From Betaproteobacteria bacterium (lineage in GTDB: Bacteria; Pseudomonadota; Gammaproteobacteria; Burkholderiales; Burkholderiaceae_A), in the NCBI GenBank assembly GCA_028139135.1, contig JAOINB010000005.1, positions 1 to 64,000 on the forward strand: a stretch of 64,000 bases of DNA, read 5' to 3'. The position numbers and the translations under genes are program-made. The notes beneath the pieces were generated by a model that had not been told where the DNA came from, searched no databases, and saw nothing but the letters and a program-made list of their open reading frames with translations. Numbering within the stretch: position 1 is the first letter of the stretch; every line of letters starts with the position of its first letter. Below, piece by piece: positions 2-15,912 of the stretch.

Positions 2-820
2 ATGAAAACTTTCGAAAACAGTTTCAGTGGGATTGTGAAAAAGGTAGATGCTGGAGAAATTTTTTTTAGAAGATTAAAAGGTGTAATTGATCCGGAAGAA
101 AAAAGGAAAATAATTGGCGCGGTCTTTGTCGAAATTTTTGAAAGCGAGTCAAGGAAGTTTACTGACGTAACATGGCTTGCACAAGGGACAATTTACCCCG
201 ATATTATTGAGTCAGCTGGTGTAGAAAGTGCTAGCGCCACAAAAAAAATAAAAAGTCACCATAATGTCGGTGGTTTACCTGATAAGTTAGCATTAAAATT
301 ACTCGAGCCAGTTAAGTCATTGTTCAAAGATGAGGTTAGACAATTAGGTGTTGAACTTGGTTTAAGAAATGATCTTGTCAATCGTCATCCTTTTCCTGGA
401 CCTGGATTGGGAATACGGGTAATAGGGGAGGTAACGAGTGAAAAAATAGCCATTCTTCAAAAGGCAGATGAAATACTTTTAGGGTTGTTAAAGACCCAAA
501 TTATTGGGAAAGAGGATTTTAACAAAGGTTTTACCAAGGAGGATGATATTGGAAAAAGTTGGTACGAAATAACTGCACAGGCATTTTGTGTATTTTTACC
601 TTTGAAAACAGTTGGTGTTAAGGGTGATGACAGAAGTTATGACTGGGTCATTGCAATACGCATCGTAAACTCAACAGATTTCATGACAGCAAATGCGACG
701 AGGTTGCCATTTGAGTTAATAGAATTAATTTCCTCCGAAATAATCAACAAGGTGAGCGATGTGAGTAGGGTGGTGCTAGATATTTCTAATAAACCACCAG
801 CTACCATTGAGTGGGAGTGA
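2..820 (+). CDS. guaA: GMP synthase (glutamine-hydrolysing), C-terminal part, 5'-truncated by window
   Basis: [24 protein letters not shown] and C-terminal KPPATIEWE are hallmark GuaA motifs; ORF enters from the window edge. Confidence 0.97.
803..818 (+). repeat. attL: direct repeat at the 3' end of guaA (ACCATTGAGTGGGAGT)
   Basis: 14/16 match to 15897-15912; overlaps the last guaA codons; integrase gene adjacent. Confidence 0.85.
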
Positions 821-966: not shown

Positions 967-2319
967 TTGCACGAGAGTCTTTTAAAGAAAAATATGGTCA
1001 TAAGCAGAACTAAATCGAGATTAAAAGATTTTAGAAAGAACAATAGAAAACCAGAGAAGAGAAAACCAAGAAACCAAAAGGTAACAGAGAGTTACGCTTA
1101 CTTCGATGGCAGATATAAAATATTCAGGACTGCTATTTCTAATCAGGTTTATCACTTTCATACCTACCTCAGGAACGAGAAAAAGACATTCCGCAGATCG
1201 TTGCAAACAACAGATTTAAAAGAAGCAGAGAAACGTGCGGAAACTATGTATTTTGACGTTCAATCACAAAGTAACAGCGGCAAAAGAATCTTCTCATTAA
1301 GTGCTAGGGAGTTAGCAGAAAAGTATATAGAGCATGAACAAAAACGATTAAATAACGATTTAATTAGTATTGGTCGTTTTAGAAATATCGAAGCACATTT
1401 AAAGCACTATTTAAGATTTGTTCACACTACAACCTCTATTGCTAATATAGATCCAAAATTCTTCAATGATTATTTAGGGCATAGAAAGAAAATTAAAAAA
1501 GATGTTCGTTTAACAACCATAAATAATGAATTAACAACAATCAAGAAGATGTACGAGTTTGCAAGAGAAGAAAAATATGTACCGCCTGATTACTTCATTA
1601 AATATGAAAAATTTAAAATTGATAAGAAGGCAGAGAGTAGGGATGCTTTTGAAATCCCCGAGTACGAAATTCTGATTAGTTACTCGAAACATTTTCACAA
1701 GTATGCAAAAAACGAGGAAGATGAATATTATTGTAAGTTAATGCATCTGTTCATATTGTTGATGTCCAATCTGGGAATGCGCTTTGGGGAATTACATAAT
1801 CTGCAATATGAAGATATTAAATTTATTAAGAATATCGTGCAAATCACAATTAGGAAAGAAAAGACAAAAGTAAGAAGAGAAAGAGTAATATTAGCGAACG
1901 AAAAATGTGCTGAGTATTTAAAAAGGGTTAGGAAAATATCAAAGTTCACATCAAGAACGAGTTATATATTTTCAAGTTATAGAAAAGATATAATCTGCGA
2001 CAAATCAAACTTATATCGTTGTTATCAAAGACTGATCGAGAGAATATCACAAAAGAAAACCAGTGCTGAATTTGACGTAACAAAGACATTTTATTGCCTG
2101 AGGCATTTCTTTATCACTATACGTTTATTGCAAAATGTAAATACATATAAATTAGCAAGGTACTGTGGTACAAGTCTTAAGGAAATACAGATGACTTACG
2201 ATGGTATGACTTCCCTAGAAGCATCAAAAGAAATATTAAAAAGTCAGCACAGTATCAAACGCTTTGGTGATTTTAATGAGTATTTTGATTACAAGTCAAA
2301 AAGTGTTGAGTTAAAATAA
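967..2319 (+). CDS. Tyrosine recombinase/integrase (start may be 993)
   Basis: C-terminal LGMRFGELHNLQYEDI ... YCLRHFFIT ... YCGTSLKEIQMTYDG matches the R..H-R-H..Y catalytic layout; next to att site. Confidence 0.9.
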   Translation: MHESLLKKNMVISRTKSRLKDFRKNNRKPEKRKPRNQKVTESYAYFDGRYKIFRTAISNQVYHFHTYLRNEKKTFRRSLQTTDLKEAEKRAETMYFDVQSQSNSGKRIFSLSARELAEKYIEHEQKRLNNDLISIGRFRNIEAHLKHYLRFVHTTTSIANIDPKFFNDYLGHRKKIKKDVRLTTINNELTTIKKMYEFAREEKYVPPDYFIKYEKFKIDKKAESRDAFEIPEYEILISYSKHFHKYAKNEEDEYYCKLMHLFILLMSNLGMRFGELHNLQYEDIKFIKNIVQITIRKEKTKVRRERVILANEKCAEYLKRVRKISKFTSRTSYIFSSYRKDIICDKSNLYRCYQRLIERISQKKTSAEFDVTKTFYCLRHFFITIRLLQNVNTYKLARYCGTSLKEIQMTYDGMTSLEASKEILKSQHSIKRFGDFNEYFDYKSKSVELK

Positions 2320-3998: not shown

Positions 3999-4037
3999 AG
4001 CGGACAGATATTGTTTGATAATTTACGCTCACCGACT
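3999..4037 (+). repeat. 39-bp intergenic direct repeat, copy 1
   Basis: AGCGGACAGATATTGTTT identical to 5363-5380; 34/39 identity over the full element. Confidence 0.75.
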
Positions 4038-4109
4038 TTTCGTGCTCTAAATTATATAATGTATATAAGAGTTGAGAAAAACTTAACTTGATTTAGCGTT
4101 CAGTTTAGT

Positions 4110-4125
4110 TGTTCCAAATTGAACA
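4110..4125. promoter_or_regulatory. Operator-like palindrome TGTTCCAAATTGAACA
   Basis: Near match to 3940-3955; about 31 bp upstream of the likely start (4157) of the next gene. Confidence 0.5.
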
Positions 4126-4156
4126 TTTTATTAACTTTTTTATAGTGAGATTAATC

Positions 4157-4918
4157 ATGAAAAAGAAAACTAAAGTAGTAGAAGTAAATACGCAAGATGT
4201 TAAGACTAACCCTGTAGCGAATGAAGTTGCAAAATCAATTAAGAAAGTGAAAGATATGAGTTTAGTTGAGAGATTCAATCATTCACACGATAGACTTGTT
4301 ACAAGACTTTCACCTGACGAGATTGCACAATCAGATGAACTTGTTGATAAGTATCATCAATTTGCTAAGAAATTCGCTTTAACTGTAATTGAATTAGCAG
4401 TGTTTATGCGTGAGACAAAACAGAAGTTTGTTAATAAAGAGATTTCTGAAAATGTCTTCAAAGTATTTTGTCACAAAATACAAATCAAATCTGATAGTTC
4501 TACTTATAGAAAATACGAGTCTATTGCTAATAATGCTGAGAAGTTGAGATTGTATCAAGATAGATTGCCTGATAACTATACAACTATCTACAATATTTGC
4601 ACGTTAAACAAAGACGAGTATTCCGCTTTTGAGCATGAAATACTCAAGTCAGATGTGCCTATTACGAACAGTGTTGTGAATAAGTTTAGATTTGGTAGGC
4701 AAGAGAAACTCATCGCTCAAACAAACGCATCTATTCAAATTGAGAAGAACAAGAACGATATGACTGTTTTTGATATAACTTTTTTAAAAGAAGATTATGT
4801 TGCAAATCAAGAAAAAATAGATGGCATAATTCATGAGTTGAAAACTCGTTATCGTGCTGACGTTGTTTCAAATACTGAGTTTCAAACTGCTGAAACCTTG
4901 CAAAAGAAAGTAGCATAA
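4157..4918 (+). CDS. Island hypothetical protein (resembles DUF3102-type mobile-element proteins); track start 4109, likely start 4157
   Basis: ORF MKKKTKVVEVNTQDV...; TAATG overlap with next gene. Confidence 0.7.
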   Translation: MKKKTKVVEVNTQDVKTNPVANEVAKSIKKVKDMSLVERFNHSHDRLVTRLSPDEIAQSDELVDKYHQFAKKFALTVIELAVFMRETKQKFVNKEISENVFKVFCHKIQIKSDSSTYRKYESIANNAEKLRLYQDRLPDNYTTIYNICTLNKDEYSAFEHEILKSDVPITNSVVNKFRFGRQEKLIAQTNASIQIEKNKNDMTVFDITFLKEDYVANQEKIDGIIHELKTRYRADVVSNTEFQTAETLQKKVA

Positions 4919-5319
4919 TGTCTGTGTTAGAAACATACTTATCAGACATAGAAGCAAAAGAGCGTCTAACAGTTAATGAAAGAGATGCTCTGCTCTTTCT
5001 ATTTTGCAAAGATGAGTCTAACGATTTAACAATTCAAGCGAAGTTAGCGAGTTCTGAAATTGCCTTTTATAGACTTAGTGAATCCTCTCAACAAAATTTA
5101 TTTGAACTAGTAGTAGATAAAGACTTTGTTCAGAGTATCACAGCAAAAATAGAGCAAGACATAAACGAACAACTAGAGTTTAGAAATCGTTCACAGCATA
5201 TCATTGATAAAGCATTAAGTGAAATAAAGAAAGACCCATATGCAAAACATTTGTCTGATATTTCGCTAGATTTAGATGTTCGTGTTATCAATGAACCTGC
5301 TCATCTAGATATCATCTAA
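4918..5319 (+). CDS. Island hypothetical protein
   Basis: 133-aa ORF translationally coupled (TAATG) to the upstream gene; followed by terminator. Confidence 0.7.
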   Translation: MSVLETYLSDIEAKERLTVNERDALLFLFCKDESNDLTIQAKLASSEIAFYRLSESSQQNLFELVVDKDFVQSITAKIEQDINEQLEFRNRSQHIIDKALSEIKKDPYAKHLSDISLDLDVRVINEPAHLDII

Positions 5320-5362: not shown

Positions 5363-5401
5363 AGCGGACAGATATTGTTTATCAATCTACGCTCAACGAC
5401 T
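5363..5401 (+). repeat. 39-bp intergenic direct repeat, copy 2
   Basis: 34/39 identical to 3999-4037. Confidence 0.75.
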
Positions 5402-5450
5402 ATTCATAGCATAACGACTAAAATAGAAGTAACAGTTTAGGAAAAAAGGA

Positions 5451-5848: not shown

Positions 5849-6016
5849 ATGAAAACCTACGCAGAAAATTTTGAAGTCAAATATAACGAGGTTCAAGAGA
5901 TTGATGCTTATAATGAAAGCGAAGTGCATAAGATTCTACGAGAGCGTTATGGGAATGCGAGTGAGATAGTTGTTCATTATGCAGATGAACTTCCTTCATA
6001 TGCTTATGACGAGTAA
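5849..6016 (+). CDS. 55-aa acidic protein (below the ORF-track cutoff)
   Basis: MKTYAENFEVKYNEVQEIDAYNESEVHKILRERYGNASEIVVHYADELPSYAYDE; AAGGAG ribosome-binding site; ATG of next gene overlaps its end. Confidence 0.6.
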   Translation: MKTYAENFEVKYNEVQEIDAYNESEVHKILRERYGNASEIVVHYADELPSYAYDE

Positions 6017-6518
6017 CTTTGAAATCACAAAGTGGGCGAGTGACATTTTAGATGCCTCGCCCTTTACTCTCTATGATATCGTATTTGAAATCAATACACC
6101 TATTGTTGATGGGTTCAATAAGAAAATAAGTGCATTTCACCCACTAGCGGTATGTAAAGTTTATAAAGCACTTGATTGGACAATTGATACGATTAGAAGA
6201 GTACATAAAGATAAAGAAAAACATTTGAAGTTTATAGCGTGGATTGGGGGCAATACAGAGCAAGGCAAACACCCTCACATTCACTCAATACTAGAGATGC
6301 CATATGATGATATTGTCTCTTATGAGATTTTGATACACAAGCATTTTCAAAGATACATTGAAAAAACCTTGAAACAATCTGTTATGACTAATGTAACCAT
6401 AAGAGAAATTGATAATGTTAAAGGGTATAGTTTCTATTGCAGTAGAAATGAAGGCGAGTATTCACTCAAAGGCGATGAGAAAATACTCATAGAAAAATTG
6501 TCTTCAATTGAGATATGA
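6006..6518 (+). CDS. HUH-endonuclease-like (Rep-like) protein, putative; track start 5970, likely start 6006
   Basis: GNTEQGKHPHIHSILEMP contains an HxH (HUH) motif at 6270-6284, with Tyr-rich GYSFYCSRNEG downstream. Confidence 0.5.
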   Translation: MTSNFEITKWASDILDASPFTLYDIVFEINTPIVDGFNKKISAFHPLAVCKVYKALDWTIDTIRRVHKDKEKHLKFIAWIGGNTEQGKHPHIHSILEMPYDDIVSYEILIHKHFQRYIEKTLKQSVMTNVTIREIDNVKGYSFYCSRNEGEYSLKGDEKILIEKLSSIEI

Positions 6519-7655: not shown

Positions 7656-8252
7656 TTATGAGAGAGATGTCCTATTCATACAGGAATAAACACTTCCAAC
7701 CCCAATCTTCAACTCCTTTGCTATTTTACGAATACCCATGCCTTTATTACGAAGTAGTTTCACAGATTGAATCAGGGAAGAATTTATATTAGACTTACGA
7801 CCGAGTTTAACCCCTTTTCGCTTTGCATTTGCAAGACCAGATATAGTTCTCTCACGAATTAAATCTCGTTCGTACTGACTGATACTGTTAATAATATTAA
7901 AGAATAATTCGCCAACAATAGTGGAAGTATCTATATTTTGATTTACGCAATAAAGATGAATGTTCTTTGATTTAAGAATGCCAGTTATCTCGCACATATG
8001 ACGAACAGAACGACCCAAGCGAGAAAGTTCAAGCACCATTACAGTATCAAACTTACCTGCAAGTCCATCTTGAATCATTTTGTTTAGAGAGGGGCGTTCT
8101 TTTATGTTGCCCGACACTCCTTCATCCGCATATTCTTCAACAACTGTGAAATCATTACGAATGGCGATTTCTTGCAATTCTTCTAATTGTCTAGCGACAC
8201 ACTGTGTTTTCTGGGAAACTCGTGTATATATGGCAACTTTTCTCATTTCCAA
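7656..8252 (-). CDS. Serine recombinase (resolvase/invertase family)
   Basis: VAIYTRVSQKTQCVARQLEEL, YADEGVSGNIKERPSLNKMI, VLELSRLGRSVRHM, ERDLIRERTISGL plus C-terminal HTH. Confidence 0.95.
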   Translation of the reverse strand: MEMRKVAIYTRVSQKTQCVARQLEELQEIAIRNDFTVVEEYADEGVSGNIKERPSLNKMIQDGLAGKFDTVMVLELSRLGRSVRHMCEITGILKSKNIHLYCVNQNIDTSTIVGELFFNIINSISQYERDLIRERTISGLANAKRKGVKLGRKSNINSSLIQSVKLLRNKGMGIRKIAKELKIGVGSVYSCMNRTSLS

Positions 8253-8407: not shown

Positions 8408-10678
8408 ATGGCAAGATTATCAGATAATCAAATTAGAGATATAACTCGTTTATTAGAGGAAGGAAAACCTCTTCCAGACAAATATAGATTTTTACTGTTT
8501 GGTGACGATAGAGAAGTTGAATTAGTTTGGAATGGAAAGTCTCATGACGTGACCAATATTGTTTTGCCATTTCAAACTATTGAGCATGTTGATGAACCAC
8601 GCTCAGAAAGGGATGTTAAAGCGCAACCTGATCTCTTTGATCTTGCAACAGGGCGTCAATTGAAAGGTTGGACAAACAAACTGATTTGGGGTGACAACAA
8701 ATTCATCTTATCCTCTTTAAGGAATGGTCCTTTGCGGGAAGAGATCGAGAAAAATGGGGGCATCAAACTGATCTATATCGATCCGCCTTTCGATGTTGGT
8801 GCGGATTTCACTATGGATGTTCAAATAGGGGAGGAGACTATAGAGAAGGAACCTAATGTTCTTGAGGAAGTCGCCTACAGAGATACTTGGGCAAAAGGCG
8901 AAGATTCGTTCCTTTCAATGATTCACGAGAGAGTGGTTCTTATGAAAGACTTGCTCTCTTCTTGCGGATCGATATATGTGCATTGTGATTGGAGGTTAGT
9001 AGGAGTTCTAAGATCCGTGATGGACGAAGTGTTTGGGAAAGAAAATTTTCTGAATCAAATTGTGTGGAAAAGGAGAGGAGGCAATGCTTCTACTAAGTCA
9101 AACAAACTAGAAAATGCAGTAGACTATTTACTTCATTATCAGAAATCAGAATCTTTCGTTCAAAATTTTCAATACACGAACGCTGGATCCGAAGATTACA
9201 TTGCTAACAATTTTACACACTCAGACCCAGATGGACGTCGGTATCGCCTGAGTCCGTTAAACAATCCAGCGCCCAGACCAACTCTACGTTATGAATTTAT
9301 GGGTCATAAACCGCACCCAAATGGTTGGAGTGTATCAAAACCTGTTTTGCAAAAGATGTTTGAAGAAAACAAGTTGGTTTTTCCCAAGAAAAAGGGTGGT
9401 CGAGTTAATCGAAAACAGTATCTTGATGAATGGAAGGGTTATGCCATTGACAGTTTATGGACGGATATACCTCCAGTGGCACCTTCAGGGAAGGAAAGGT
9501 TAGATTACCCAACCCAAAAACCTATTGCGTTAATCGAGCGAATTTTAAAAAGTTCAAGTAACCCTGGTGACCTCGTTTGCGATTTTTTTGTCGGTTCAGG
9601 CACCACGGCAGCGGTAGCAGAGAAACTAGGTCGAAAATGGATTTGTTCGGATCTAGGTAAATTTTCTATACATACTGCTAGAAAGCGTCTTATTAGTGTA
9701 CAGAGAGAACTGAAAAAAGAAAACAATAACTATCGGGCATTTGAAGTTCTAAATCTTGGTAAATATGAACGTGAATTCTTTGTTTCTGGACTTTCGGAAC
9801 TTGATGAAAAATCAGCGCAACATGTTAAAAATAATCGCGAACTGGCATTCAACGCACTAATCCTGCAGGCATATCAAGCAGAATCTGTCTCTGGTTTCCG
9901 TACTTTTCGAGGTAAAAAAAATAATCGTTTGATTGCGATTGGTCCCGTGAATATGCCTGTCTCTCGACTTTTTGCTGAACAGGTCGTTACAGAATGCGTT
10001 GAAAAAGGTATTACTAAAGCGGACTTACTTGCCTTTGAATTTGAAATGGGTCTTTTCCCAAGCATTCAGGATGAGGCATCAAATAAAGGCGTCGATCTCG
10101 TCCTTAAACAGATTCCAAAAGAGGTCTTTGATAAACGTGCGGTCGACAGAGGGGAAGCAAAATTTCACGATGTTGCGTATATCGACGTTAAAGCACATAT
10201 CGAGGGTAACTCTATAGCGATCGAATTAACGAATTATTCTGTCTTTTATACACAGGGTATTACTTCTTTAACAGAGGAAAGTCTCAAAAGGGGCAAGAGT
10301 CTGGTGGTGGTAGAAAATGGACAAGTTCTAAAAATCAGTAAGGACAAGGATGGAATAACTAATCCTAGAGAAATCCTCACAAAACAATGGAGCGATTGGG
10401 TAGATTATTGGTCAATCGACTTTGACTATGAATCTAAGAAAGAAATTATCTATGAACGCGATCCAAATACGGGAGAAGATATTCCAAAATGGACGGGTTC
10501 ATATATTTTTGAAAACGAGTGGCAGTCTTTTAGGACGCGTCAAGATCGTTCATTAGAACTTAAATCCGTTCCTTTCGAGACTGCTTCTGGGCGAAGAAAA
10601 ATCGCGGTGAAAGTCGTGGATATCTTCGGAAATGATACGATGAAAGTTATCGATATGACGATAGGAGGGAAGATCTAA
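8408..10678 (+). CDS. Type III-like restriction-modification DNA methyltransferase (Mod, beta-class N6-adenine)
   Basis: LIYIDPPFD (motif IV) precedes DFFVGSGTTAAVAEKLGRKWICSD (motif I); YPTQKP; long C-terminal extension. Confidence 0.93.
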   Translation: MARLSDNQIRDITRLLEEGKPLPDKYRFLLFGDDREVELVWNGKSHDVTNIVLPFQTIEHVDEPRSERDVKAQPDLFDLATGRQLKGWTNKLIWGDNKFILSSLRNGPLREEIEKNGGIKLIYIDPPFDVGADFTMDVQIGEETIEKEPNVLEEVAYRDTWAKGEDSFLSMIHERVVLMKDLLSSCGSIYVHCDWRLVGVLRSVMDEVFGKENFLNQIVWKRRGGNASTKSNKLENAVDYLLHYQKSESFVQNFQYTNAGSEDYIANNFTHSDPDGRRYRLSPLNNPAPRPTLRYEFMGHKPHPNGWSVSKPVLQKMFEENKLVFPKKKGGRVNRKQYLDEWKGYAIDSLWTDIPPVAPSGKERLDYPTQKPIALIERILKSSSNPGDLVCDFFVGSGTTAAVAEKLGRKWICSDLGKFSIHTARKRLISVQRELKKENNNYRAFEVLNLGKYEREFFVSGLSELDEKSAQHVKNNRELAFNALILQAYQAESVSGFRTFRGKKNNRLIAIGPVNMPVSRLFAEQVVTECVEKGITKADLLAFEFEMGLFPSIQDEASNKGVDLVLKQIPKEVFDKRAVDRGEAKFHDVAYIDVKAHIEGNSIAIELTNYSVFYTQGITSLTEESLKRGKSLVVVENGQVLKISKDKDGITNPREILTKQWSDWVDYWSIDFDYESKKEIIYERDPNTGEDIPKWTGSYIFENEWQSFRTRQDRSLELKSVPFETASGRRKIAVKVVDIFGNDTMKVIDMTIGGKI

Positions 10679-13389
10679 TGGCAATCCATAAAGATTTTCC
10701 ATCGTCGCCACATGAGATTCTAAAACCCGAAGTTCGATGGTTCCCCGCTGACGAGACGTTAAGGGACACATCTTATGAAAAGTTAATGCCCCCTCTCGTC
10801 CACGAACTAAGACAAAAAGTTTTTGAGTGGCGAGAAAACGGATATCCGGAAATAAGTGATACCGGGCGAACGCTTTTAAACTGGTGGTTCAAGTCGCCGC
10901 ACCCAATCCCCCACGCGGATGGAACGATTGGTAATTTTAAATATTACTTTGCTCAACGTGAATCAGTAGAGACAGTTATTTACCTGCATGAGTTTGTGAA
11001 AGTAAAAGACAAGCATGATTTGCTGCGTTTCGATACCAGGGGCGTCGTGCCTTCTAAACTTATCGAAGAGACATGGCGGAGATATGTCGTCAAGATGGCG
11101 ACAGGTAGCGGCAAAACCAAAACTATTAGTCTCTTATTAGCATGGTCATATTTTCATAAAAAATATGAAGAGTACTCTGACCTTTCAACAAATTTTTTGG
11201 TTATCGCACCAAACATTATTGTTTTAGACAGATTAAGGACTGACTTTGATGGATTGCGAATATTTTCTGAAGATCCTGTGATTCCAGATAATGGTCTGGA
11301 TGGACGTAATTGGCGGACGGATTTCCAACTCACTCTCCACATTCAAGACGAAGTAGGACCTTTAAACCCGAACGGAAATATTTTTCTCACAAATATACAC
11401 CGTGTCTATGATGACAAGACTCCCGCGCCCACGGCGGATGATGAAAACTCAATGGATTATTTCCTGGGAAATAAACCCAAGGGAAAGACAACCGATTCGG
11501 TTGTAGATCTGGGACGAATCATCAGAGATATCGATGGATTGGTTGTAATCAATGACGAAGCACATCATATTCATGATAGTAGGTTGACTTGGTTTAAATC
11601 GATTGGCGATATCAACAATAAACTGAAACAAAAGGGATCTGAATTAGCGTTACAAATAGATGTTACGGCAACACCAAAGCATAACAACGGTGCAATCTTT
11701 GTTCAAACCATTGCTGATTATCCCCTAGTTGAAGCAATCACTCAGAATGTTGTTAAACACCCTGTTCTTCCGGATGCACCTAGTCGTACGAAACTTACTG
11801 AGAAGCAAAGTTCTGTCTACACCGAAAAATACCAAGACTATATCGATCTCGGAGTTGCCGAATGGAAAAAAGTTTACGCGGAGCATGAAAAATTAGGCAA
11901 GAAAGCAATCCTATTTTTAATGACAGATGAAACGAAGAATTGTGATGCCGTTGCGAAGTATTTAGAGACAACTTACTCTGAATTCAAAGATGCTGTTTTA
12001 ACGATCCACACTAATCCCCGGGGAGAGGTCGATGAAAAGGCATCATCGAAAGCGAAAAAAGAGGAGTTGGAAATATTAAGGAGGCAATCTAATGAAATTG
12101 ACACTTGGAAGAGTCCGTATAAAGCAGTAGTTTCTGTTTTGATGTTAAAGGAAGGATGGGATGTCCGTAACGTTACCACCATTGTTGGACTTCGTGCCTA
12201 TACTGCCACATCAAATATACTTCCAGAACAAACTCTAGGAAGAGGTTTACGGCGTATGTATCCGAGTCAAGACGCGGAAGAATATGTTAGCGTGGTGGGT
12301 ACTGAAGCATTCATGAACTTTGTTGAATCAATACAAAGTGAAGGCATTGAATTAGAGAAAAGACCAATGGGAGATGGGAGTAAACCCGTTGCTCCAATGA
12401 TTATTGAGGTGGACGAGAAAGGAGAGAAAGATCTCGATAATCTGGATATCGAGATACCAGTCCTGACTCCGCGTGTAGTTAGAGAATATAAAAATTTAAA
12501 CGACCTAGATCTGGATGCATTAAAGTTTAAAACTGCCGTATATCGGGAATATTCAGAGGAGGAAAAAAGAGAAATCGTTTTTCGCGATATTACCACAGAT
12601 GAAGTCACCCACACGACCCTCTTAGAAGGGGCGGTCAGTACTGACTATCGAAGCGTTATAGGTTATTTTGCGCAAACAATTTTAAAGGACCTTAGGTTGT
12701 ATGCTGCATATGATCTTTTGTATCCAAAAATTCGAGAGTTTGTTCAGGATAAATTGTTTGGGAGGTTGGTTGACCTCGATGACCCAAATACTTTGAGAAA
12801 TTTGAGTGAACCAGTTGTCTCACGAACGATTTTTGAGACGTTTAAAATTGCAATTAATAACTTAACTATTCGCGATACAGGAAACGCGGAGATTCGAGAC
12901 AGTATTAAAATTAGGAATATGCGCCCCTTCGTAGTAAAAGATCAAAAAAATATTACGGCAAAGAAATCGGTATTCAACAAGATTGTAGGTGATAGCGTAC
13001 TAGAACTCCGATTTTCCCAATTTTTGGAACGGGTTCCAGATGTGATCTCTTATGCGAAGAATTATACCCAATTAAATTTTAAGATTGACTACATTGATGC
13101 GGTGGGGAATATAGCAAATTATATCCCAGATTTTTTGGTGAAGGTTTCGGATAGGAAAACATATGTTGTAGAAACCAAGGGACTAGAAGATTTAGATGAT
13201 CCTCTTAAGATAAAAAGACTCCGCCAATGGTGTACGGATGTAAACACATCACACTCGGATGTTGAATTTGATTTTATTTATGTTGATCAGGAGAAGTTTG
13301 ATAGATTGACCGGTGAATCTCAAGGATCAAAAAATGAATTGGCAACGTTTTCTGATCTTGTTAAAAGATTCACTGCTTACAAGGAATGA
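10678..13389 (+). CDS. Type III-like restriction subunit (Res): DEAD/DEAH helicase plus C-terminal PD-(D/E)XK nuclease
   Basis: Walker A MATGSGKT, NDEAHH, helicase motif VI-like PEQTLGRGLRRM, C-terminal YIPDFLVKV...YVVETKG; TAATG overlap with mod. Confidence 0.93.
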   Translation: MAIHKDFPSSPHEILKPEVRWFPADETLRDTSYEKLMPPLVHELRQKVFEWRENGYPEISDTGRTLLNWWFKSPHPIPHADGTIGNFKYYFAQRESVETVIYLHEFVKVKDKHDLLRFDTRGVVPSKLIEETWRRYVVKMATGSGKTKTISLLLAWSYFHKKYEEYSDLSTNFLVIAPNIIVLDRLRTDFDGLRIFSEDPVIPDNGLDGRNWRTDFQLTLHIQDEVGPLNPNGNIFLTNIHRVYDDKTPAPTADDENSMDYFLGNKPKGKTTDSVVDLGRIIRDIDGLVVINDEAHHIHDSRLTWFKSIGDINNKLKQKGSELALQIDVTATPKHNNGAIFVQTIADYPLVEAITQNVVKHPVLPDAPSRTKLTEKQSSVYTEKYQDYIDLGVAEWKKVYAEHEKLGKKAILFLMTDETKNCDAVAKYLETTYSEFKDAVLTIHTNPRGEVDEKASSKAKKEELEILRRQSNEIDTWKSPYKAVVSVLMLKEGWDVRNVTTIVGLRAYTATSNILPEQTLGRGLRRMYPSQDAEEYVSVVGTEAFMNFVESIQSEGIELEKRPMGDGSKPVAPMIIEVDEKGEKDLDNLDIEIPVLTPRVVREYKNLNDLDLDALKFKTAVYREYSEEEKREIVFRDITTDEVTHTTLLEGAVSTDYRSVIGYFAQTILKDLRLYAAYDLLYPKIREFVQDKLFGRLVDLDDPNTLRNLSEPVVSRTIFETFKIAINNLTIRDTGNAEIRDSIKIRNMRPFVVKDQKNITAKKSVFNKIVGDSVLELRFSQFLERVPDVISYAKNYTQLNFKIDYIDAVGNIANYIPDFLVKVSDRKTYVVETKGLEDLDDPLKIKRLRQWCTDVNTSHSDVEFDFIYVDQEKFDRLTGESQGSKNELATFSDLVKRFTAYKE

Positions 13390-13985
13390 GAAAATCGATT
13401 GAGACAAACATAGAAGGTATCTATCAAGACAGATCTTTAAGTACTAATGAATTAGCACAATGCCTAGCACCTGATATGTATAGTGAAATTGTCTCTTTAT
13501 TAAAATCTGATGATTATAAAAATAAAATTGAACATATAAGTATGTTTTTTTGTGAATTTCTTCGAAGACAGGAAGGAAAAGGTAGGTCTAAATATTTTAC
13601 AAAAACTGAAAAATTACTTGAGGAGAATAACATTGTGCCTATTAATTGGTATTTAAGGGCACTAGATACTGTTTCAAAAATAAGAGTAAAGAAAAAGAAA
13701 GACATCGAAAGAAATCATAATGTGTACTGTATATTAGTCGATGGTTTTGCGAAATCGTCTCCATACGGAGTATATGTAGGCGAGACTTCTAAGGCACCAG
13801 AGCAGAGATTTGGTGAGCATAAGGAAGGAGGGAGGTTAGCAGCAAGAAGAAACAAGAGGTTCATATGTCTTCTTCCTGGGTTGTATCAACGATTTAATCC
13901 TTTATCAAGAGAAGAGGCGAAGGAATTAGAACCGGTAATATGTAAGAAATTATTAGAGAATGATGTGAGAGCGTTTTATGGATAA
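13386..13985 (+). CDS. GIY-YIG nuclease-domain protein with novel N-terminal region
   Basis: VYCILVDGFAKSSPYGVYVGETSKAPEQRFGEHKEG ... EEAKELEP fits the GIY-YIG pattern (Y, R, E); ATGA overlap with res. Confidence 0.7.
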   Translation: MRKSIETNIEGIYQDRSLSTNELAQCLAPDMYSEIVSLLKSDDYKNKIEHISMFFCEFLRRQEGKGRSKYFTKTEKLLEENNIVPINWYLRALDTVSKIRVKKKKDIERNHNVYCILVDGFAKSSPYGVYVGETSKAPEQRFGEHKEGGRLAARRNKRFICLLPGLYQRFNPLSREEAKELEPVICKKLLENDVRAFYG

Positions 13986-14013
13986 CTATTTTTATATATA
14001 TTTTTTAGTATAG

Positions 14014-14883
14014 ATGAATATTTCAAAAGATGACTATATTTTAAGAGCATTCTCAAAAATAAAACATAAGAAATGGGAACTATATATTGTTACCAGAATT
14101 ATTCATTTATTGGATGATCCAGAAATTGAATTTGTATGTCAACAGTTGATCAAGACATCAAATAATAAGCGTTATCTCGCAGATATTTGTTTCCCAAATT
14201 TAAGTTTATATGTTGAGATAGACGAGTTACAGCATAGTAAATTAGAGCACTCAGAGTCCGATAAAGATAGAATGAAAGAAATTTTAGATGCGTCTAACTT
14301 TCTTGAAAAGCGCATCCAAATTTTTACTGCTCAAAGAGAAATAAAAAGTTTAGGAGAAATTAATTCGGAGATTTGGAAAATTGTAAAATTTATCAAAAAA
14401 CGAAAAGAAGAATTGGTATTAAAAAAATTCTTTCAACCATGGAATTTTGATAAAAAATATGATCCAGAAAAGTATATTAGTTTAGGATACTTGGACTCTA
14501 GAAAGAATGTTTCCTTCTTATATCATCGTGATGCATTACGATGCTTTGGATATAAAGGTGGTCATTTTCAAAAAGCGGTATGGGAAATTAAAGGCACAAA
14601 AAAGGGCGTATGGTTTCCTAAGTTATATGCGAATAAAGAATGGAATAATAGTTTAAGTGACGATCTAGGTACTATTGAGATGAGACGAATAGATAATGGT
14701 AAACTTTGGACTATTGGGAATCATGAGTGGTTAGTATTTGCCCATTACAAAGATTTTCTCGGGAGAATTGTTTATAAATTTCTAGGAGAGTTTCACTCGT
14801 CTAGAGAAGACTCAACCATGTTTTGTCATATCTTTTTAAGGAAGAAAACAAAAATTAATCTTAAGGAATATCAAACGCTCTAA
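14014..14883 (+). CDS. PvuRts1I/AbaSI-like modification-dependent (5hmC-type) restriction endonuclease
   Basis: N-terminal DYILRAFSKIKHKKWELYIVTRIIHLLDDPEIEFVCQQ...YLADICFPNLSLYVEIDELQH (Vsr-like PD-(D/E)XK) and C-terminal SRA-like YHRDALRCFGY...VWFPKLYANKEWNNSLS; recognised from memory of the family. Confidence 0.75.
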   Translation: MNISKDDYILRAFSKIKHKKWELYIVTRIIHLLDDPEIEFVCQQLIKTSNNKRYLADICFPNLSLYVEIDELQHSKLEHSESDKDRMKEILDASNFLEKRIQIFTAQREIKSLGEINSEIWKIVKFIKKRKEELVLKKFFQPWNFDKKYDPEKYISLGYLDSRKNVSFLYHRDALRCFGYKGGHFQKAVWEIKGTKKGVWFPKLYANKEWNNSLSDDLGTIEMRRIDNGKLWTIGNHEWLVFAHYKDFLGRIVYKFLGEFHSSREDSTMFCHIFLRKKTKINLKEYQTL

Positions 14884-14900
14884 TATGATTTAATAGAACA

Positions 14901-15833
14901 ATGAATATATTAAGAATAGTACTCGGAGTACGGCACAGATTTTTTAACGAATGTTTCGAAGGTGGATACATTGGGGTAGATTTTGGCATGGATGTGGATC
15001 TTACTAATCATCTATCTGATAGTGTTGAAGAGTTTCGTCGCTTCTTTAAACCAAAGTATTTGGAAAAACATCCAAATGCTGCGTCCATAAAAGGAGGGTT
15101 AGCGTGCAGTTTTACATACACGGTAACAAAATTATTAGGAATTGGGGATTTGGTTTTATCGCCTGATGGTACCGGGAAATATCATGTAGGTGAAATTCAA
15201 AGTGAATATTATTATGTTGCCAGTGAGGAGAGCAGTTTTCTAAGACACAGGCGAAAAATTAAGTGGTTAAATAAATCAATAAATCGAATTGATATGAGTG
15301 AACCACTAAGGAACTCTGCAGGTTCAATTGCTACTATTTGTAATTTATCAAATTACTCAAAAGAAATTCTCCAATTAATTGCTGTTGAAAACACACGTCC
15401 AGTTGCGAGTGAAGACCCAGATGTTGAAAGTCCGAGTGAATTTGCTTTGGAAGAGCATTTGGAGGATTTTCTTGTAAAAAACTGGGATCAAACTGAATTA
15501 TCTGAAAAATATGAAATCTATGAAGATGAAGAATTTAATGGTAGGCAATTTAGTACGGATACTGGTCATATAGACATACTCGCGGTCAGCAGGGATAAAA
15601 AAGAATTTTTAGTTATTGAACTTAAAAAGGGAAGGGCAAGTGACAGAGTAGTAGGGCAAATACAGAGATATATGGGTTATATACAAGAAGAGTTTGCCAC
15701 AGAAGGACAAGTCGTAAAAGGGGCAATTATCGCTTTTGAGGAGGACAAAGGAATTAAAAGAGCATTAAGCGTTACTAGGAATATAGAATTTTATAAGTAT
15801 CAAATTAAATTTAATTTAACAAAGGTTAGTTAA
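14901..15833 (+). CDS. Putative restriction endonuclease: N-terminal PUA/EVE-like domain, C-terminal NucS/DUF91-type PD-(D/E)XK nuclease
   Basis: GHIDILAVSRDKKEFLVIELKKGRASDRVVGQIQRYMGYI is a D-ExK-Q core; N-terminal IGDLVLSPDGTGKYHVGEIQSEYYY resembles PUA/EVE-like specificity domains. Confidence 0.75.
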   Translation: MNILRIVLGVRHRFFNECFEGGYIGVDFGMDVDLTNHLSDSVEEFRRFFKPKYLEKHPNAASIKGGLACSFTYTVTKLLGIGDLVLSPDGTGKYHVGEIQSEYYYVASEESSFLRHRRKIKWLNKSINRIDMSEPLRNSAGSIATICNLSNYSKEILQLIAVENTRPVASEDPDVESPSEFALEEHLEDFLVKNWDQTELSEKYEIYEDEEFNGRQFSTDTGHIDILAVSRDKKEFLVIELKKGRASDRVVGQIQRYMGYIQEEFATEGQVVKGAIIAFEEDKGIKRALSVTRNIEFYKYQIKFNLTKVS

Positions 15834-15896: not shown

Positions 15897-15912
15897 ACTA
15901 TCGAGTGGGAGT
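15897..15912 (+). repeat. attR: direct repeat ACTATCGAGTGGGAGT (followed by AG, giving a TAG stop)
   Basis: ACT ATC GAG TGG GAG TAG encodes T-I-E-W-E-stop, identical to the GuaA C-terminus. Confidence 0.85.

Follow-up and report, generated by a model that had tools for sequence, protein, structure and literature searches.

Results

Layout of the five-gene operon

The window, by which we mean the whole 64-kb stretch of DNA analyzed here, carries five intact open reading frames (ORFs) that all lie on the plus strand. The first, mod (8408 to 10678), encodes a type III-like, beta-class N6/N4 DNA methyltransferase (N6_N4_Mtase; E value, 1.8e-40), and the second, res (10678 to 13389), encodes an SF2 helicase with a C-terminal PD-(D/E)xK nuclease (ResIII; 1.3e-16). 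They are followed by genes for a GIY-YIG nuclease-like protein (gene 3; 13386 to 13985), for a modification-dependent endonuclease of the PvuRts1I/AbaSI family with a Vsr-like nuclease and an SRA domain (gene 4; 14014 to 14883), and for a protein that joins a putative EVE/PUA-like domain to a NucS-type PD-(D/E)xK nuclease (gene 5, EVE-NucS; 14901 to 15833). The mod stop and res start codons overlap in TAATG (10676 to 10680), the res stop and gene 3 start codons overlap in ATGA (13386 to 13389), and gene 4 lies 28 bases after gene 3 and 17 bases before gene 5. An ATGA overlap usually means that translation is coupled. A sequence-only reading of this DNA had described the same five consecutive same-strand genes, both overlaps, and the nature of each part; the ORFs and overlaps are present as it described them, and the Pfam, PADLOC, and NCBIfam domain matches agree with its naming of the parts.

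Within the five-gene operon, a consensus scan for promoters and terminators gave nothing above the chance level, and the genes may therefore share a single transcript and be coregulated. The GC content is 0.398 in mod and res and 0.333, 0.301, and 0.348 in genes 3, 4, and 5, respectively.

Mod and Res form a widespread type III-like pair

Mod matches PADLOC MTase_III (4.8e-103) and, in the PDB, the Mod protein of EcoP15I (3.8e-15). Res matches PADLOC REase_III (2.4e-19), its C terminus matches TnsA-like/PD-(D/E)xK nucleases (5.1e-6), and its motifs GSGKT, DEAH, and NYxPDF...VETKG are invariant or nearly so across homologues. Two features of a type III restriction-modification (RM) system, a beta-class N6/N4 Mod and an adjacent SF2 helicase/PD-(D/E)xK Res, are in place. 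A Res profile search returned no type III Res in the PDB, and the closest named NCBI family, BPTD_3080, was matched with 263.5 bits (E value, 3.5e-78), below its equivalog cutoff of 800 bits. Of 100 loci examined, some of them cut short by a contig end, 81 have mod adjoining res, and the two proteins are a widespread, conserved pair. In genome G000, a draft that is about 86% complete, Mod is the sole match to the N6_N4_Mtase family.

Genes 3 to 5 encode three different nuclease-like proteins

The GIY-YIG protein scores 21.4 bits against Pfam GIY-YIG, just under the cutoff of 22.6 bits (E value, 3.2e-4). Stand-alone GIY-YIG proteins match it with E values of 1e-5 to 2e-6 per genome; its C-terminal half aligns with such proteins of 107 amino acids (aa), and in the alignment the VY, YVG, R, H, and E positions are common to these relatives and the window protein with its subthreshold Pfam score. 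The N-terminal extension of about 110 aa is an orphan, and no full-length relative was found in genomes, plasmids, or viral contigs. A model built without an alignment had a mean pLDDT of 40.7 and was too poor for use.

The gene 4 protein combines a PvuRts1I-like_N domain (2.4e-21) with an SRA domain (7.8e-18); across 286 aa it has 38.9% identity with PvuRts1I from plasmid Rts1, an enzyme for which the roles of individual residues have been described (PMC4027163, PMC4157451). In PvuRts1I numbering, the residues K17, E20, D57, P61, E68, D70, E71, and H74 are retained, the last six of which mark the N terminus as a Vsr-like PD-(D/E)XK domain, as are the SRA pocket residues W205, P207, Y210, W215, and N217. 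These domains and conserved catalytic and pocket residues agree with the Vsr-like/SRA-like modification-dependent endonuclease that the sequence-only reading had named here. Leu-58 is replaced by Ile, Arg-208 by Lys, and Ala-212 by Asn, which is residue 207 of the gene 4 protein; E228 of PvuRts1I aligns with M223 of the gene 4 protein, and a Glu sits one residue before. In PvuRts1I, the A212N substitution lowered the preference for 5-hydroxymethylcytosine (5hmC) over 5mC and C (PMC4157451), and since the gene 4 protein has Asn at this position, our guess would be that its specificity is broader. Relatives of PvuRts1I on Rts1-like plasmids come without any of the operon neighbors seen in the window, those in phage records were limited to Streptococcus and Acinetobacter ones, and none was confirmed in viral contigs.

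The gene 5 protein matches NucS_C (1.4e-7) and the PADLOC candidate class PDC-S02 (4.5e-127). Its catalytic residues D225, E240, and K242 are invariant in six homologues, as befits a NucS-type nuclease domain, and all six share an N-terminal block in which the G-D and HRR-W motifs do not vary. A model built with four sequences had a mean pLDDT of 60.5; Foldseek searches with this low-confidence model found NucS/EndoMS, VcaM4I, and YTH domains, among which the match to VcaM4I, an EVE-HNH protein, had a probability of 0.99 and an E value of 2.3e-3. The motifs and the fold match give weak support to an EVE-like N-terminal domain, and modification-dependent restriction enzymes of EVE-PD(D/E)XK architecture have been described (PMC7641849).

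The gene 5 homologues are 45 to 54% identical, and several lie within RM operons: in type I operons (in Acinetobacter and in genome G098), after a type ISP enzyme (locus L143), and in a type IIG-like operon (L114). Another lies near a helicase gene (L144), and at L145 a GIY-YIG gene begins 36 bases after the EVE-NucS gene. With homologues in type I, ISP, and other RM operons, the EVE-NucS gene is a companion to RM operons of several types. A phylum-wide search for further EVE-NucS loci returned the window itself only.

The operon is the last cargo of an integrative element in guaA

At the 3' end of guaA lies an attL-like repeat, ACCATTGAGTGGGAGT (803 to 818, plus strand), which is 14/16 identical to an attR-like repeat, ACTATCGAGTGGGAGT (15897 to 15912, plus strand), in a duplicated guaA 3' end that still reads TIEWE-stop. 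The repeats were detected by alignment and a mismatch-tolerant scan, which gave no third copy in the 64-kb window when it allowed three mismatches on the plus strand and two on the minus strand. Repeats of the type TTGCAAAC adjoin both ends of the element. A tyrosine recombinase gene (integrase; 967 to 2319, plus strand; Phage_integrase, 2.5e-10, with SAM-like domains) stands beside attL, and a serine resolvase/invertase gene (7656 to 8252, minus strand; Resolvase, 2.9e-40, with HTH_7) lies upstream of mod; resolvase genes also occur near the Mod-Res pair at L019 and L147. A small ORF with an HPHIH (HUH-like) motif (5970 to 6518, plus strand) weakly matches the PHROG "replication initiation protein" (E value, 0.029) and is tentatively taken as a candidate replication protein of the element, possibly of the HUH type. 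An 83-nucleotide direct repeat (3999 to 4081 and 5363 to 5445; 72% identical) flanks two ORFs of the element that have no assigned function (4109 to 4918 and 4918 to 5319).

An island-free genome of the same genus (G004) has guaA 1.9 kb from the DUF5665 gene that is found in the right flank of the window, and further genes past DUF5665 also match this flank, in synteny with the region after guaA. It is not a perfect empty site, because the intervening 1.9 kb holds small ORFs of its own. Given the flanking repeats, the integrase at the left end, and this island-free relative, the insertion is a 15.1-kb integrative element at the 3' end of guaA, and the five-gene operon is its last cargo, which stops 64 bases short of the right end. 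A second genome of the genus (G001) has a 98% identical integrase at guaA (contig C6, 3 to 1250) with one in-frame stop; nothing else of the element turned up in this draft, and the contig ends 1.5 kb beyond the integrase. That stop is what might be expected if the genes were decaying, nonfunctional defense remnants on a dead element, a scenario that we regard as highly improbable for the window, where all five ORFs are intact and the catalytic residues of genes 2, 4, and 5 are conserved.

Genes 3 to 5 are not conserved partners of Mod-Res

With a Res profile made from nine Res proteins, we scanned one genome per species (85,462 species) and kept the best 80 loci, 56 of which extend at least 2.5 kb beyond the pair and so have room for genes 3 to 5. 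Compared with every ORF of these best 80 loci, the GIY-YIG and PvuRts1I-like proteins of the window gave no match, and the EVE-NucS protein gave a single distant match, on the opposite strand (L083). Nor did any of 80 viral-contig loci have a same-strand orthologue of genes 3 to 5 next to res. The locus with the closest Res (L019, in a SAR116 genome; 82% identity) lacks genes 3 to 5; past res come small ORFs of unrelated sequence and part of a resolvase gene. Among 369 genomes of the class, the holders of Res, of PvuRts1I-like, and of well-matching EVE-NucS proteins are different genomes, and the only genome to hold two of the families (G167) does so as distant relatives only.

The sequence-only reading had proposed one undescribed five-gene system and a synteny analysis as its check; in this analysis, Mod stays with Res, conserved partnership does not extend to the three downstream genes, and a conserved five-gene system is not supported. 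For a dedicated system whose five genes coevolved, one can point to their common strand, short gaps, and coherent function and to analogous sets of methylase, helicase, GIY-YIG, and EVE-type nuclease genes at L083 and L114, the parts of which are non-orthologous. No second orthologous instance turned up in the 80 genome and 80 viral Res loci, however, separate families are held by different genomes, and the GC content steps inside the operon. By orthology, the neighborhood analysis largely refutes such a system, and we consider it very unlikely; genes 3 to 5 have the look of exchangeable cargo and not of components of a single new machine.

Varied accessory genes lie between or after mod and res

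In 42 of the 81 loci with both genes, one or more same-strand genes of at least 80 aa lie between mod and res (the loci with accessory genes were drawn from L019 to L098 and L147 to L158). Pfam assigns the products in this gap to KilA-N (8), Schlafen AlbA_2 with HATPase_c_4 (8), Bro-N (4), DUF3800 (3), small GIY-YIG proteins (3), AAA with subtilase (2), HepT (2), and PIN (2), with single cases of Fic, YhcG, NYN, DUF488, and others; in all, more than a dozen families are represented, HEPN included. The genes just downstream of the pair are a more heterogeneous group, with GajA/OLD-like ATPases, DarT, TIR, and Fic among them. At least 35 changes of cargo (raw count) are needed on a FastTree tree of 99 Res proteins, and neighboring Res proteins can have different cargo (GIY-YIG at L066 and AlbA_2 at L067; an ATPase at L077 and AlbA_2 at L078). 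PrrC, HEPN, RhuM, and Doc are known as cargo of other RM operons (PMC3710099, PMC12707154). We found no literature on such accessory cargo for this Mod-Res family and nothing specific on BPTD_3080 or on type III operons in which other genes separate mod from res.

GIY-YIG-clan genes accompany the Mod-Res pair at 4 of about 100 loci other than the window: they lie between mod and res at L032, L066, and L083, and at L147, where Res is 75% identical, a T5orf172 protein is encoded 7 bases after res. By rough inference, this recurrence looks above chance for a type of gene with few copies per genome. These proteins and that of the window fall into different subfamilies, UPF0213-like and T5orf172 among them, with the window protein in one of its own, and a profile search found no homologue of the window GIY-YIG protein near Res in 88 loci. 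Of the coupling of a GIY-YIG gene to Res, on which the sequence-only reading had placed weight, the ATGA overlap itself therefore stands and unrelated genes of the clan do recur at the pair, but the linkage is not conserved by orthology.

The same observations bear on whether the first three genes might be an RM system of their own, with the GIY-YIG protein as a subunit or backup effector of Res, comparable to PrrC in EcoprrI, and the last two genes as independent type IV enzymes. The ATGA overlap with res and the clan's recurrence near the same pair speak for such a system, as does a T5orf172 GIY-YIG gene that overlaps both EVE-NucS and helicase genes at L114. We nevertheless think it unlikely, given the difference in subfamily, the missing homologues, and the fact that KilA-N and AlbA_2 are commoner in the mod-res gap (8 each).

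Two further loci resemble the operon of the window in composition. At L083 (2754 to 9548), Mod, GIY-YIG, and Res genes are accompanied by a divergently oriented EVE-like/Mrr nuclease gene beside mod. At L114 (1438 to 12091), a same-strand run encodes an MmeI-like methylase, two unknown proteins, a DEAD helicase, a T5orf172 protein, EVE-NucS, and an unknown 684-aa protein; the helicase, T5orf172, and EVE-NucS genes overlap, and PADLOC has no system name for the whole operon. The sets at L083, L114, and L145 are non-orthologous, which suggests a theme rather than a family. In a bolder and rather unlikely interpretation, the Mod-Res family would serve as a platform in which one accessory slot, in the mod-res gap or immediately downstream of the pair, is reserved for swappable genes that act as backup effectors released when restriction fails; the window would be the GIY-YIG version, and the combination of RM, GIY-YIG, and EVE-type nuclease would have been assembled repeatedly (in the window, L083, and L114).

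Discussion

We conclude, with a probability of roughly two in three, that the locus is a type III-like RM core to which three nucleases were added independently as defense cargo of the guaA element and that it is not one machine. Mod would methylate host sites, and Res would cut DNA that lacks the mark. Having joined the core independently, genes 3 to 5 would extend this protection: the SRA domain of the PvuRts1I-family enzyme may flip out and sense 5-hydroxymethyl- or glucosyl-hydroxymethylcytosine, with cleavage nearby, the N-terminal domain of the EVE-NucS enzyme may sense another modified base, with cleavage by its PD-(D/E)xK domain, and the GIY-YIG protein may be a third accessory nuclease. 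The combination of core and added genes would give cover against phage DNA with and without modified bases. The ATGA overlap of res with the GIY-YIG gene, the recurrence of GIY-YIG-clan genes at L032, L066, L083, and L147, and the possible single transcript count against independent addition.

The layered logic of the earlier proposal, in which RM acts on unmodified DNA and modification-dependent nucleases act on hypermodified phages, remains plausible in light of the residues conserved in gene 4 and of a tested precedent, Vibrio cholerae pathogenicity island 2 (VPI-2), where RM acts on unmodified DNA and a type IV system on modified phages (PMC11411939). Here, an RM core and nucleases against modified DNA share one mobile element, a concrete case in which additive and joint action can be told apart by experiment. 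Of most interest for further work is the accessory slot of the Mod-Res family. It could serve as an anchor for finding new defense effectors, comparable to the genes from type I operons, and, if functional, would link type III-like restriction to abortive or backup defense.

What is new about the locus is the combination; its kind, in which a mobile element carries an RM core together with modification-dependent nucleases, is known. Like the EcoP15I Mod-Res type III system, it has a beta-class N6/N4 methylase with a DPP motif before the FxGxG motif and an adjacent gene for an SF2 helicase with a PD-(D/E)xK nuclease; unlike in that system, the Res profile leads to no type III Res in the PDB and is nearest to BPTD_3080 among NCBI families, and many relatives of the pair have a gene between mod and res. 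Gene 4 shares the nuclease residues and most SRA pocket residues of the PvuRts1I/AbaSI family but differs in the Asn in place of A212, in the Glu that is displaced by one residue from E228, and in its location behind an RM operon. Gene 5, with its putative EVE-like domain, has the domain order of the EVE-PD(D/E)XK enzymes and PDC-S02 (PMC7641849) but sits behind a type III-like pair. RM operons with PrrC, HEPN, RhuM, or Doc also carry accessory genes as further layers of defense (PMC3710099), whereas here a type III-like family is associated with KilA-N, AlbA_2, Bro-N, GIY-YIG, and other genes, as distinct from the HEPN-linked operons described there. Finally, the type I RM system with embedded TgvAB on VPI-2 likewise unites RM and defense against modified DNA on one island (PMC11411939); there, the core is of type I and the nuclease is GmrSD type and embedded, while in the window the core is type III-like and the PvuRts1I-family and EVE-NucS genes are appended.
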